Shown piece by piece: positions 5,239-21,554 of a DNA stretch of 64,000 nucleotides. The position numbers were made by a program, and so were the translations under genes. Source of the stretch: Leifsonia sp. 466MF (GTDB lineage Bacteria; Actinomycetota; Actinomycetes; Actinomycetales; Microbacteriaceae); the NCBI RefSeq assembly GCF_900100265.1, contig NZ_LT629696.1, positions 992,001 to 1,056,000 on the forward strand, read 5' to 3'. The first letter of the stretch is position 1. Every line of letters begins with the position of its first letter. The notes below the pieces were generated by a model, which saw nothing but the letters and a program-made list of their open reading frames with translations, was not told the DNA's origin and ran no database searches.

Positions 5239-6507
5239 TCAGGAGGGTTGGACGGGGACGGGCTCCGTGTCGGGGATGGGGGAGGCGTCGCGACCGCGCA
5301 GGTCGGGGTGGATGCGGTGCGCCAGGGCGGGCACGACGAAGCCGACCAGGGCGAAGGCCCCGGCCACCCAGAAGGCGCCGACCGCACCGACGCCGTCGAT
5401 GAGGAAGCCCGCGACCGCGGAACCGAGGGCGGCTCCGATGAGCTGGCCGGTTCCGACCCAGCCGTAGGCCTCCGCGGTGTCCGAGAACTTCACACTCGCC
5501 GACACGATCGCGAACAGCACGGCGAGGGCGGGGGCGATGCCGAGGCCGGCGATCAGGAGGGTGAGCGACAGCCCCCACCACGACCACAGCATGAACGTCG
5601 ACAGCACGACGCCGACGAAGACGATGAGCATGCGCCGCGCGGTCGCCCATGGCCCGATCGGCACGTGACCGAACGCAAGGCCGCCGACCAGCGAGCCGAG
5701 CGACCAGATGGCGAGCACGATGCCCGCGAGCGGAGACCCCTCTCCGAACGTCGCGACCACACCGGCCTCGACCGCCGAGCAGGAGCCGATGAGCAGGAAG
5801 CCGACGACCGTCGCGAGGAGCACGGGCGGCCGCGCCAGCACCGTCCCGAACCGCCGCTTGCTGCGCGGGATGCGCACCCGGCCGACCTCGGGCGACGAGA
5901 TGAACCAGCATCCGCCGGCGAGCATGATCGCGACCGACATCAGGATTCCCTCGACGGTTCCGATCTGGGTCGAGACGAAGGTGATGGCGACCGGGCCGGC
6001 GATCCAGATGATCTCCTGCGCCGAGGCGTCGAGCGAGAACAGCGGGGTCAGCTGCCGCGAGTTGACCATCTTCGGATAGATCGTGCGGACGGCCGGCTGG
6101 ATGGGCGGCATGCTGAGGCCGGCGAAGAACGCAACGCCCATGGTCAGGGGGATGGGCATGACGAAGAGGCCGATCGCGGCGACCGCCACCGAGCAAAGCG
6201 CGAGCGTCGTCCAGAGCACGACCCGCATGCCCAGGACGCCCATCAGCCGGCTGGTCATCGGCCCGGCGATGGCCTGTCCGATGCTCATCGCGCCGAGCAC
6301 CAGACCCGCGGCGCCGTACGAGTCGTGGACGCGCTCGATGTGCAGCAGGAAGGCGAGCGACAGCATGCCGAACGGGAAGCGTGCGGTGAGCTGAGCCGCG
6401 ATGATGCGGGCGACGCCCGGCGTCTTCAGGAGGCTCGTGTAGGTGCTCACAGCCATCCACACTATCGGTCGCGGAGGCGGTTCCGCGGGAGTATCCACAC
6501 TGTCCAT
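5239..6507 (-). CDS. MFS transporter
   Basis: A 422-residue integral membrane protein with about 12 hydrophobic segments separated by short charged loops, for example VVLWTTLALCSVAVAAIGLF and LLATVVGFLLIGSCSAVEAG. The central loop (RVRIPRSKRRF, about residue 210) divides two six-helix halves as in the major facilitator superfamily. The pattern resembles drug/sugar efflux members, but the substrate cannot be read from sequence. ATG 6507 is preferred because AAGGGGGG immediately precedes it; an in-frame ATG at 6570 would add 21 residues across the regulatory region. It diverges from nrdAB; the shared 200-base region has DnaA-box-like and NrdR-box-like sites mostly on the nrd side. Confidence 0.85.
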   Translation of the reverse strand: MDSVDTPAEPPPRPIVWMAVSTYTSLLKTPGVARIIAAQLTARFPFGMLSLAFLLHIERVHDSYGAAGLVLGAMSIGQAIAGPMTSRLMGVLGMRVVLWTTLALCSVAVAAIGLFVMPIPLTMGVAFFAGLSMPPIQPAVRTIYPKMVNSRQLTPLFSLDASAQEIIWIAGPVAITFVSTQIGTVEGILMSVAIMLAGGCWFISSPEVGRVRIPRSKRRFGTVLARPPVLLATVVGFLLIGSCSAVEAGVVATFGEGSPLAGIVLAIWSLGSLVGGLAFGHVPIGPWATARRMLIVFVGVVLSTFMLWSWWGLSLTLLIAGLGIAPALAVLFAIVSASVKFSDTAEAYGWVGTGQLIGAALGSAVAGFLIDGVGAVGAFWVAGAFALVGFVVPALAHRIHPDLRGRDASPIPDTEPVPVQPS

Positions 6508-6566: not shown

Positions 6567-6616
6567 CCACTAGATGTGGGGGAGTGGAAATGTCGGACCC
6601 CCGCTATATAGTGGTC
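6567..6616 (+). promoter_or_regulatory. tandem NrdR boxes and putative nrdA -10 region
   Basis: Two 16-base palindrome-like sites fit the NrdR pattern ACACwATATnTwGTGT: CCACTAGATGTGGGGG (6567-6582) and CCGCTATATAGTGGTC (6601-6616). Their centres are about 33-34 bases apart, roughly three helical turns, as in other bacterial nrd promoters. TATAGT (6607-6612) inside the second box could be the -10 hexamer, giving a leader of about 95 bases. NrdR itself is not in the window. Confidence 0.75.
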
Positions 6617-6713: not shown

Positions 6714-9212
6714 GTGGCTATCACAGTCGTGAAGCGCAACGGCGAGCGCGAGCCGTACGACGCCAACAAGATCAACCTGGCCATCGAGAATGCGGCCCAG
6801 GGTCTTGACGAGAACATCACGTGGGTGACGCAGATCGCGAGCGAGCTCGAGCTCACGCTCTTCGACGGCATCACGACGCAGCAGCTCGACGAGGCGGTCA
6901 TCCAGGTCGCCCTCCAGAACGTCAAGGACGACCCGGCGTTCGATACCGTCGCCGCGCGCCTCCTCCTCAAGACGATCTACAAGCGCGTGCTCGGCGACTA
7001 CGAGAGCCACGACGAGCTCGTCGAGCTCCACACCTCCCGCTTCCGCGGCTACATCGAGCGGGGCGTCGCCGAGACGCTGCTCGACGGCCGTTTCACGACC
7101 GCGTTCGACCTCGACCGCCTGGCCGGCTACCTCGACCCCTCCCGCGACGAACTGCTGAAGTACATCGGCGTCGTCACCCTCAACAACCGCTACGGCATCA
7201 AGGCGCGCAACGGCGACTCCCTCGAGGTGCCCCAGTTCTTCTGGATGCGCATCGCGATGGGCCTCTCCCTCAACGAGGCCGACCCCACCAGCCACGCCAT
7301 CGCGTTCTACGACAAGATGTCGAAGCTCGAGTACCTGGCCGCCGGATCGACCCTGGTCAACGCCGGAACCGCCTACCCGCAGCTCTCCAACTGCTTCGTC
7401 ATGGAGATGCAGGACGACATCGAGCACATCGCGAAGAGCGTCCGCGACGTCATGTGGCTCACCAAGGGCACCGGCGGCATCGGCCTCTCGGTCACCAAGC
7501 TGCGTGCGCAGGGCTCGCCCATCCGCTCCAACAACACCACCTCCACCGGTCCGATCCCGTTCATGCACACGATCGACTCGGTACTGCGCGCGGTCAGCCG
7601 CGGCGGCAAGAAGTTCGGCGCCCTGTGCTTCTACATGGAGAACTGGCACATGGACTTCCCGGAGTTCCTCGACCTCCGTCAGAACTCCGGCGACCCGTAC
7701 CGCCGCACCCGCACGGCCAACACCGCGGTGTGGATCAGCGACGAGTTCATGAAGCGCGTCCAGAACGACGAGGACTGGTACCTCTTCGACCCGCTGGAGG
7801 TCGCCGACCTCAACGAGCTGTACGGCAAGGCCTTCTCGGAGCGCTACGCGCACTACGTCGCCGAGGCCGAGGCCGGCAACCTCAAGATGTTCAAGAAGAT
7901 CAGCGCCCGCGCGCAGTTCAAGGACATCCTGATGAGCCTCCAGACCACCAGCCACCCGTGGCTGACCTGGAAGGACACCATCAACAACCGTGCCCTCAAC
8001 AACAACACGGGCACCATCCACCTCTCCAACCTGTGCACCGAGATCACGCTGCCGCAGGACCGCGACAACGTCTCGGTCTGCAACCTCGCGTCGATCAACC
8101 TGTCGCGTCACCTGGTCGACGGGAAGATGGACTGGGAGCGCATCGAGGCCAGCGCCCGCCAGGCGGTCCGCCAGCTCGACAACCTCATCGACATCACCGT
8201 GTCGAGCGTTCCCGAGGCCGACTTCTCGAACCAGCAGAACCGCGCGATCGGCCTCGGCGTCATGGGCTTCACCGACGTCGTCGAGAAGCTGGGCCTCAGC
8301 TACGAGAGCGAAGAGGCCTACGCCCTGATCGACGAGATCATGGAGCACGTCTCGTACGCCGCCATCGACGAGAGCGCCGACCTGGCGCAGGAGCGCGGCG
8401 CGTACCCGAACTTCGAGGGCTCCCGCTGGTCGCAGGGTCTGGTGCCTTATGACTCGATCGCCCTCACCGAGGCCGACCGCGGCGTCCCGATCACCGTTGA
8501 CCGCACCATCCGCCTCGACTGGGACCGTCTCCGCGAGAAGGTCAAGGGCGGCATGCGCAACGCCACCCTCATGGCCATCGCGCCGACCGCGTCGATCGGT
8601 CTCGTCGCGGGCACCACGCCCGGCTTCGACCCGCAGTTCTCGCAGATCTTCAGCCGGTCGACCTCCTCGGGCAAGTTCCTCGAGGTCAACCGCAACCTGG
8701 TCGAGACGCTGCAGGAGCGCGGCATCTGGCAGGACGTCCGCGAGGCGATCTTGCGGTCGCAGGGCGACATCCAGAACATCGCGGAGATCCCGGACGAGGT
8801 TAAGGCCACGTTCAAGACGAGCTTCCAGCTCTCGCCGTACGCCTTCATCGAGGTCGCGGCCCGCGCCCAGAAGTGGATCGACCAGGCGATCAGCCGCAAC
8901 ATGTACCTCGAGACGCGCGACCTCGGCGACATGATGGACATCTACTACGCGGCCTGGGAGAAGGGCGTCAAGACGACGTACTACCTCCACATGAAGCCGC
9001 GTCACCAGGCCGAGCAGTCGACCGTCAAGGTCAACAAGGCCGAGGAGATCAGCGGAGGCCGCAAGGGCTTCGCCTCGGTCGGCGCCGGCGCTCCGGCTCC
9101 GGCTGCGGCTCCCGCCGTCACGGAGACCGCGCCGGCCTCCGCCCCCGCTCGCCGTGGCTTCGGCTTCGGCGGTCTCGGTTCCTCCACCCCGGCGGGCGGT
9201 GAGAACAAGTGA
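6714..9212 (+). CDS. nrdA: ribonucleoside-diphosphate reductase alpha subunit (class I)
   Basis: Catalytic subunit reducing ribonucleoside diphosphates; 832 aa. The N-terminal ~90 residues form an ATP-cone (VVKRNGEREPYDANKINLAI). Active-site cysteines are visible: Cys227 in SNCFVME, Cys441 in NLCTEITLP and Cys456 in SVCNLAS. The start is GTG 6714 with GAGGGAGA 4-5 bases upstream. The C-terminus is odd: after a Pro/Ala-rich linker (residues ~790-820) the frame stops at GGENK without the CxxC pair that normally reduces the active-site disulfide. That pair occurs in a 25-codon frame overlapping the stop codon (9209-9286). The gene is followed by nrdB and preceded by NrdR-like boxes, so NrdR repression is likely. 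Confidence 0.95.
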   Translation: MAITVVKRNGEREPYDANKINLAIENAAQGLDENITWVTQIASELELTLFDGITTQQLDEAVIQVALQNVKDDPAFDTVAARLLLKTIYKRVLGDYESHDELVELHTSRFRGYIERGVAETLLDGRFTTAFDLDRLAGYLDPSRDELLKYIGVVTLNNRYGIKARNGDSLEVPQFFWMRIAMGLSLNEADPTSHAIAFYDKMSKLEYLAAGSTLVNAGTAYPQLSNCFVMEMQDDIEHIAKSVRDVMWLTKGTGGIGLSVTKLRAQGSPIRSNNTTSTGPIPFMHTIDSVLRAVSRGGKKFGALCFYMENWHMDFPEFLDLRQNSGDPYRRTRTANTAVWISDEFMKRVQNDEDWYLFDPLEVADLNELYGKAFSERYAHYVAEAEAGNLKMFKKISARAQFKDILMSLQTTSHPWLTWKDTINNRALNNNTGTIHLSNLCTEITLPQDRDNVSVCNLASINLSRHLVDGKMDWERIEASARQAVRQLDNLIDITVSSVPEADFSNQQNRAIGLGVMGFTDVVEKLGLSYESEEAYALIDEIMEHVSYAAIDESADLAQERGAYPNFEGSRWSQGLVPYDSIALTEADRGVPITVDRTIRLDWDRLREKVKGGMRNATLMAIAPTASIGLVAGTTPGFDPQFSQIFSRSTSSGKFLEVNRNLVETLQERGIWQDVREAILRSQGDIQNIAEIPDEVKATFKTSFQLSPYAFIEVAARAQKWIDQAISRNMYLETRDLGDMMDIYYAAWEKGVKTTYYLHMKPRHQAEQSTVKVNKAEEISGGRKGFASVGAGAPAPAAAPAVTETAPASAPARRGFGFGGLGSSTPAGGENK

Positions 9213-9286
9213 ACAGCACCAAGATCGAGGAGTACTACGTGCCGGTCGACCCGATGGACGACCTGCAGTGCGAGTCCTGCCAGTAA
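9209..9286 (+). CDS. 25-codon ORF carrying the NrdA redox tail (CESCQ)
   Basis: A GTG overlapping the nrdA stop as GTGA opens a 25-codon frame that reads VNSTKIEEYYVPVDP, then MDDLQCESCQ and a TAA. The end CxxCQ, preceded by acidic residues, is what the flexible C-terminal tail of class I NrdA normally looks like. It is in the -1 frame relative to nrdA. Insertion of one G at 9209 (AAG-GTG instead of AAGTG) would fuse it to NrdA, so it is either a translationally coupled peptide, a real recent frameshift, or a sequencing error. No classical slippery heptamer is visible at the junction. Confidence 0.6.
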   Translation: MNSTKIEEYYVPVDPMDDLQCESCQ

Positions 9287-9324
9287 CCCGCCGACCCACC
9301 GAATAACGAAAGAGACGGAACACC

Positions 9325-10314
9325 ATGGGGATTCTGGGAACGGGAATCGAAGAGGGCCTGCTGCTCAAGCCGGTCACGTACCAGTGGGCGATGGACCTCT
9401 ACGACCAGGCCGTCGCGAACACCTGGTTCCCGAACGAGATCCAGCTCGGTGAGGACATCGCCGACTTCAAGCGGATGACCGACGAGGAGCGCCACGCGGT
9501 CACCTTCCTGATGAGCTACTTCAACCCGAACGAGCTGCTCGTCAACAAGGCCCTGGCCTTCGGTGTCTACCCCTACATCAACGCGGCTGAGGCGCACCTC
9601 TACCTCGCCAAGCAGATGTGGGAGGAGGCGAACCACTGCATGTCGTTCGAGTACGTCCTCGAGACGTTCCCGATCGATCGCGAACAGGCCTACAACTCCC
9701 ACGTCGACGTGCCGTCTATGGCGAAGAAGGAGGAGTTCGAGGTCCGCTTCATCAAGCGGATGACCGAGCAGGCGCTCGACATCACGACGACCGAGGGCAA
9801 GCAGGACTTCATCCGCAACCTGGTGGCGTACAACGTCATCCTCGAGGGGATCTGGTTCTACTCGGGCTTCATGGTGGCGCTCTCGTTCCGCCAGCGGAAC
9901 CTGCTGCGCAACTTCGGTTCGCTCATCGACTGGGTGGTGCGCGACGAGTCGCTGCACCTCAAGTTCGGCATCAACCTCATCCTGACGGTGCTGGAGGAGA
10001 ACCCGGACCTGCAGACGCCGGAGTTCGCCAACGAGATCCGCCAGATGATCCTGGACGCCGTGGAGATGGAGGAGCAGTACAACCGCGACCTCCTCCCGGG
10101 CGGCATCCTGGGCCTGAACGCGAACTACATCAACCAGTACGTGAAGTACCTGGCCGACCGCCGTCTGGAGGAGCTGGGCTTCGAGGCCGAGTACAAGGTC
10201 TCCAACCCGGCCAAGTGGATGGCGACCGCCAACGACACGCTGGAGCTGGTGAACTTCTTCGAGTCCACCAACACCTCCTACGAGTCGAACGCCAAGGCCT
10301 CCACCGGTCGCTGA
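9325..10314 (+). CDS. nrdB: ribonucleoside-diphosphate reductase beta subunit, class Ic-like
   Basis: Radical-generating subunit, 329 aa. The six metal ligands are seen as Glu70, Glu101, His104, Glu174, Glu208 and His211. The spacings (31 residues Glu70-Glu101, 34 residues Glu174-Glu208) match class I R2 proteins and not the R2lox oxidases. At the position of the tyrosyl radical, four residues after His104, there is Phe108 (EANHCMSFEY). The first ligand is Glu where class Ia has Asp. Both are hallmarks of class Ic enzymes such as the Chlamydia Mn/Fe protein, so a Mn/Fe cofactor without Tyr radical is inferred. Ribosome site GAAAGAG lies ~11 bases upstream. It sits 38 bases after the CESCQ frame and 1 base before the sulfurtransferase. 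Confidence 0.95.
   Translation: MGILGTGIEEGLLLKPVTYQWAMDLYDQAVANTWFPNEIQLGEDIADFKRMTDEERHAVTFLMSYFNPNELLVNKALAFGVYPYINAAEAHLYLAKQMWEEANHCMSFEYVLETFPIDREQAYNSHVDVPSMAKKEEFEVRFIKRMTEQALDITTTEGKQDFIRNLVAYNVILEGIWFYSGFMVALSFRQRNLLRNFGSLIDWVVRDESLHLKFGINLILTVLEENPDLQTPEFANEIRQMILDAVEMEEQYNRDLLPGGILGLNANYINQYVKYLADRRLEELGFEAEYKVSNPAKWMATANDTLELVNFFESTNTSYESNAKASTGR

Positions 10315-19087: not shown

Positions 19088-21554
<2,467 letters not shown>

Follow-up and report, generated by a model that had tools for sequence, protein, structure and literature searches.

A separately encoded C-terminal redox tail of class I ribonucleotide reductase in Leifsonia and its relatives

Where does the class I ribonucleotide reductase (RNR) encoded in this stretch of Leifsonia DNA keep its C-terminal reducing cysteines? 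The C-terminal Cys tail of the class I enzyme is regarded as an integral part of it. Class I tails are treated as attached in the accessible part of PMC9669993, and, according to the portion of PMC4520616 that is available, the thiol exchange that takes place at the active site of class I and class II RNRs is carried out by their C-terminal cysteines. In the window (the whole stretch of DNA that was analyzed, 64,000 nucleotides), three genes raise the question:

6714..9212, plus strand: nrdA, class I RNR catalytic subunit, 832 aa, GTG start, TGA stop (NF005101, PF02867, PF00317, PF03477)
9209..9286, plus strand: ORF of 25 codons for the detached tail, starting at a GTG that shares bases with the nrdA stop (GTGA); core VPVDPMDDLQCESCQ
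9325..10314, plus strand: nrdB, class I RNR radical subunit, predicted class Ic-like (NF007186, PF00268; best PDB match 1syy)

NrdA scores 1684 bits against NF005101 and lies above the cut-off for PF02867, PF00317, and PF03477 (the barrel, all-alpha, and ATP-cone domains), and its Pfam domains stop at residue 758. It has a 98% match in a named Leifsonia record. The gene ends ...GGT GAG AAC AAG TGA, with the stop at 9210-9212, and the chain ends ...GGENK. Because its sole cysteines are C227, C305, C441, and C456, the chain is without a C-terminal Cys pair, as a sequence-only reading of this DNA had claimed. C227, C441, and C456, which we take to be the active-site set (redox pair and thiyl Cys, with roles after the E. 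coli enzyme), are kept in 109/109, 108/109, and 109/109 loci, respectively (duplicates counted). NrdA has the domains, the active-site redox pair, and the thiyl Cys of its class; the C-terminal pair that a class I NrdA carries on the same chain is found on a separate ORF. The gene adjoining nrdA encodes an NrdB with the small-chain domain (PF00268, NF007186), closest to Chlamydia R2. At the presumed radical-Tyr site its Phe aligns to the Phe of 1syy/4d8f, and by this alignment it has the Phe that replaces the radical Tyr in class Ic; NrdB is predicted to be class Ic-like, for which a Mn/Fe cofactor would be expected. The window genome has one PF02867 protein, a count that covers PF02867, with class III NrdD outside it.

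The separate ORF begins with GTG at 9209-9211, translates as MNSTKIEEYYVPVDPMDDLQCESCQ, and ends with TAA at 9284-9286, followed by nrdB at 9325. The earlier claim that a frame overlapping the nrdA stop encodes a redox tail holds, down to the coordinates it gave. Ten tail residues (V, P, D, P, M, L, C, S, C, and Q) are invariant over all 90 distinct junctions, and 8 of these 10 show codon variation; the Ser, for instance, is AGC in 45, TCC in 41, and TCG in 4. The last residues of the tail are not independent evidence, because the search for adjacent tails demanded C-x-x-C before the stop and the count retained SCQ ends (0 dropped). Adjacent tails are 21 to 57 residues long (median, 26). The first tail start overlaps the nrdA stop in 78 of the 90, by -1 in 43 and +2 in 35, through overlaps of the types GTGA/ATGA or TAATG/TGATG, and at these overlapping starts the SD sequence falls within nrdA codons. 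The median anti-SD energy of the 90 adjacent tails is -9.0 kcal/mol, compared with -2.4 kcal/mol at 450 random nrdA places and -5.7 at 47 nrdB starts. No family was found in Pfam for the window's tail or in NCBIfam for three tails, and the single PHROGs match of the three is at chance level (E 0.18). Judged by its sequence, the adjacent tail ORF is coding and conserved rather than a chance frame.

Of 110 loci (L002 to L111), 104 have the tail directly 3' of nrdA. The 110 include the window's own locus (L002) and 11 repeat contigs, recognized by their equal lengths, removal of which leaves 98 distinct relatives; the tail adjoins nrdA in 92 of them, four are without it (L049, L075, L089, and L109), and two end at a contig edge (L093 and L106). 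The nrdA ends of relatives are thus split in 92/98, not fused in one frame throughout. The named records are mostly Microbacteriaceae, together with some metagenome bins bearing broader or other labels. The nrdA frame is disrupted near the C-terminal end in L029, L031, and L129, and the first two were for this reason excluded from the junction counts.

Elsewhere in the order, the tail is generally attached. NrdAs from its other families have a fused CxxC end in 48 of 49 cases. Of 36 such proteins with 66 to 75% identity, 35 end in a fused CPxDPxxxLxCxxC, mostly CPVDPMExLQCESCQ, the exception being the disrupted L129, and 13 with 37 to 42% identity have another fused form, CS/CA...CEAC (e.g., CSLENPESCEACQ). 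The residue before the first Pro is Cys in the related fused tails, whereas it is V in 90/90 split junctions. We infer that the fused tail is the ancestral state. The 29 positions found to separate split from fused NrdA are confounded by phylogeny and were set aside.

A profile (A1) built from 20 tail peptides was run on eight genomes, including the four without an nrdA-adjacent tail, and it found the tail elsewhere in 4/4 of the latter. These four loci had appeared tailless because the exact DNA pattern omitted AGY serine codons. Loss of the tail in some species had been considered and was rejected, given that the profile located it elsewhere in all four genomes. In genome G447, likewise, nrdB follows nrdA without an intervening tail, yet there is one tail match in the genome. 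At L049, a terminator-like hairpin (by eye, 5484-5535) stands directly 3' of nrdA at the site of the relatives' tail, with nrdB ~200 bp further on.

The window genome itself has a further tail gene, and paired NrdR-like boxes are found upstream of both this gene and nrdA:

G000:C1:3110474-3110557, minus strand: second, free-standing tail gene, outside the window, MDYENDSVGGYSVPVDPMDLLQCDSCQ (profile match)
G000:C1, 3110607-3110654: putative paired NrdR-like boxes upstream of the second tail gene (exact pattern)
6568..6614 (= G000:C1:998568-998614), minus strand: putative pair of NrdR-like boxes 5' of nrdA, reading CCACTATATA...CATCTAGTG on that strand

The second tail gene has its own ribosome site, AGGGGAGG 5' of the ATG, and a terminator-like hairpin 3' (by eye). 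An ORF of 25 to 39 residues is present at 48/48 free-standing loci examined, 8 from the eight-genome run and 40 chosen as distant from nrdA, with one repeat; their median anti-SD energy is -11.0 kcal/mol, with starts picked partly by SD match.

Tails also occur in other settings. In Naasia lichenicola (L185, G431:C5:94777), an NrdH-like ORF with a degraded CxxC (PGDPDC) carries an RNR-type tail, APVDPEDGLDCDSCQ, at its C terminus. Its match to Pfam Glutaredoxin (E 0.0089) is under cut-off strength, and the arrangement is a hint at a modular tail. Diaminobutyricibacter tongyongensis (L187, G436:C5:16248) has a third tail gene, of 49 aa with LQCETCQ, after a small excisionase/HTH-like ORF (by eye). 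A search with this tail returned 14 proteins of 49 to 52 aa, of which one is identical to the query, one is named "hypothetical protein," and the others are without a name.

The exact box pattern, CCACTATATA-N14-40-CATSTWGTG, was derived from the two window-genome sites, which are the only ones in its 4.14 Mb, before nrdA and before the free-standing tail. It is present in 26 of 28 genus genomes (at least two sites in 13 and one in 13), and the reversed pattern was found in 0/28. In one genus genome the box pair, in its nrdA form, occurs at a third site, G025:C1:2448346-2448392. In the window genome the boxes of a pair, such as ACACTACATGTAGTGG and TTATATAGTGG, stand 32 to 33 bp apart, start to start. 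NrdR boxes have a length of 16 bp and a consensus; assuming 16-bp boxes, the spacer here is 16 to 17 bp. Spacers of 15 to 16 bp are usual, and all four NrdRs tested bind at 14 to 17 bp, according to the accessible part of PMC12051234. Two boxes separated by about that distance 5' of RNR genes constitute a putative NrdR-type promoter. Counting distinct genes, a relaxed pattern placed a box pair of near-constant spacing before 45 of 47 free-standing tails and 96 of 98 nrdA copies, compared with 0/940 and 0/1960 base-shuffled controls, respectively; the motif was taken from Leifsonia nrdA and tail sequences prior to counting. The pair was missing at L356, which probably is on a plasmid, and at L387, L049, and L052, and one locus was too short.

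Two explanations would do away with a separate peptide. Since NrdA and the tail lie in different frames in the window, as they would after a one-base loss, the split could reflect a lost G or a sequencing error in one strain, as the sequence-only reading allowed. It recurs, however, in many independently sequenced species with differing junctions, some with an in-frame stop, and an error is therefore excluded; we assign this explanation practically no probability. The same reading also considered recoding, by which a frameshift or readthrough at the nrdA end would join the tail to some NrdA chains. Relative to nrdA, the frame of the tail is 2 in 81 of the 90 distinct junctions, 0 in 6, and 1 in 3 (50, 7, and 3 among 60 adjacent pairs of a family survey with partly overlapping species). 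A single favored frame reachable by a -1 shift would suit recoding, as would the X XXY YYZ heptamer found within the shared open stretch in 2 of the 81 frame-2 junctions. However, the bias also follows from the stop-start overlaps at -1 or +2, and the slippery heptamer is absent from the other 79, the window's included. Recoding is not a general mechanism, because the tails occupy all three frames, with 9/90 in the two other frames, because a stop precedes the tail in 5/5 of the same-frame pairs opened (of 7; two of the five are the contigs of L053 and L111, already among the 90 junctions), and because the tail occurs only elsewhere in four genomes. The distant tail genes, moreover, are equipped with separate starts, ribosome sites, and boxes, and we regard recoding as very unlikely. 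With separate ORFs and genes, three frames, and distant copies, the remaining proposal of that reading, that NrdA and a detached tail are made separately, fits the DNA best.

The tail follows the split NrdA closely. In a survey of 299 family genomes (thresholds, E<=1e-100 for NrdA and E<=1e-3 for the tail), a tail match was found in 130/130 NrdA-positive genomes versus 6/169 NrdA-negative ones, making 136 genomes with a tail, and 163 genomes have neither an NrdA of the split type nor a tail. Five of the six exceptions are 77 to 94% complete, and the sixth is a complete genome with a weak match. At least two tail matches occur in 118 of the 130 NrdA-positive genomes, and the split-type NrdA was found in 41 of the 85 genera sampled in the family. 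Across the phylum, only the window's own genome among 396 matched the tail profile at E<=1e-4. Of 26 genomes from other families, 25 of which have an NrdA match, 13 gave a single profile match, located at the nrdA end, and 13 gave none. The 13 whose own tail was recognized show no second profile match anywhere; in the other 13, divergent stand-alone tails could be missed because the profile does not recognize the genomes' own tails. Of the four genomes whose nrdA has no tail beside it, two encode a second PF02867 RNR, as do, with low identity, 4 of 27 other genus genomes; therefore, the split enzyme is not the sole RNR everywhere.

Stand-alone tails are also present in at least 120 IMG/VR viral contigs (DNA pattern, stop included). 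Among the 120 matches listed, the tail ends an ORF in all, as the pattern required; counted from the first start, the ORF has at most 44 residues in 103, is longer in 16, and is cut by the contig end in 1. These matches comprise 103 distinct tail ends. Ahead of the first Pro, 79 of the 120 listed (L218 to L337) have V, 24 have C, 9 have I, and 8 have another residue; the form with C resembles the fused tails and may point to other hosts. A tblastn search of annotated phages (limit, E 10) returned six records, one for Pontimonas phage phiPsal1 (E 0.006), two each for Clavibacter phages CMP1 (0.05) and CN1A (2), and one, no better than chance (E 10), for a Staphylococcus phage. The tails of phiPsal1, CMP1, and CN1A, phages of Microbacteriaceae, are clear stand-alone ORFs that are unannotated in the records. 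Pan2, a phage of the cyanobacterium Pseudanabaena (L412, ON968453.1), has a tail-like ORF, MDDFDTIDGFACPNDPADLVSCESCQ, near 21258-21323 in a frame other than that of the annotated CDS. PF02867 was absent from all 46 tail-bearing phage records searched, of 123 (the 120 IMG/VR contigs listed and the three phages); the 46 are mostly longer records, one of them, judged by its length, is CN1A as deposited in IMG/VR, and many could be incomplete. Tail matches (E up to 0.1) were also obtained in 19 plasmid records (Clavibacter, 15; Leifsonia, 3; Gryllotalpicola, 1), of which three were opened. A strict box search found 0/79 5' of viral tails, and none were found at three plasmid tail copies. A 33-residue Leifsonia plasmid tail is labeled "ribonucleotide-diphosphate reductase subunit beta" (WP_223361114.1), and database traces of the tail therefore exist.

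It is very probable, in our judgment, that the tail is a diffusible, separately encoded peptide that acts in trans to re-reduce NrdA. The genetic evidence, made up of gene anatomy, conservation, separate genes, shared boxes, and co-occurrence, is strong; expression of the peptide, its binding, the electron transfer, and the role in phages are predicted from it. In this clade, the class I RNR would have lost its covalently attached redox tail, which would instead be translated as an independent peptide, the adjacent copy being made by translational coupling within an nrdA-tail-nrdB operon. A further copy is present in most genomes, commonly as a free-standing gene under nrdA-type paired NrdR-like boxes. 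Having bound NrdA, the peptide would enter the active site in trans and pass electrons to the C227-C456 disulfide formed in each turnover, and the oxidized peptide would be re-reduced by thioredoxin or NrdH. By analogy, it should act in trans because C-terminal cysteines and NrdJb, which performs thiol-disulfide exchange in a split class II RNR and is required in vivo (PMC4520616, in the part available), carry out thiol exchange in known RNRs. A free 25-residue peptide may be unstable. The phage and plasmid copies, most simply, would support the host RNR.

The peptide might, on another view, be linked to RNR without being the reductant of NrdA, acting as a regulator, an inhibitor, or the reductant of another partner, with the phage copies as modulators or decoys. 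A regulator would suit several copies under separate promoters as well as the phage and plasmid copies, and the bacterial detached tails have V at the Cys position of the fused tails. The core of the peptide, however, is the fused tail itself, CxxC included; NrdA retains its active-site pair and is devoid of further cysteines at the C terminus; and the co-occurrence of tail and NrdA is near perfect, which together make such a role unlikely. Returning to a tail that reduces NrdA in trans, we think it probable, with some reserve, that an essential enzyme here has a separately regulated, diffusible redox peptide of ~26 residues as an exchangeable part, and that phages and plasmids spread this peptide without the catalytic subunit, in support of the split RNR of the host, as an auxiliary metabolic peptide.

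The tail appears to have been severed, retained in many genera, duplicated under the control boxes of the enzyme, and acquired by phages and plasmids, which suggests that viruses can provide the redox part of an enzyme in place of the whole enzyme. These enzyme parts, mostly of fewer than 45 residues, are so small that records often omit their annotation. They offer a natural system for asking how a tail reaches the active site, whether it is able to act between subunits, and what affinity is required; in yeast R1, the tail of one subunit reportedly serves the neighboring subunit.

Among the titles and abstract openings listed in a literature search, with subscription papers and preprints mostly beyond its coverage, none concerned a detached class I RNR tail, and we know of no close precedent for a free, multicopy, phage-borne redox peptide. 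The ordinary fused class I NrdA of other families of the order has a related tail at the same protein end, in one frame and with no stand-alone copy where the profile could detect one (13/26 genomes), whereas the Leifsonia-type tail is detached. The detached class I tail is a form of split RNR, and split RNR itself is known from class II and from phages. As described in the available part of PMC4520616, NrdJa-NrdJb of Pseudomonas aeruginosa is alike in that re-reduction of the active site falls to a distinct polypeptide, one required for activity in vivo; that enzyme is class II and B12 dependent, with an NrdJb of 229 residues and both genes in one operon. The Leifsonia system shares with it, at the DNA level, reducing cysteines on a separate gene product, but in place of a class II core with B12 binding it has class I nrdA and nrdB, a tail of ~26 residues, free-standing genes, and phage and plasmid copies. 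The NrdA-a/NrdA-b of Aeromonas phage Aeh1 and other split phage RNRs are functional two-gene class I NrdAs; according to the accessible part of PMC3653736, the gene of a single phage was in each case broken up by the insertion of endonucleases, introns, or inteins. The Leifsonia-type split, in contrast, involves no insertion, extends over many genera, and detaches the tail alone.
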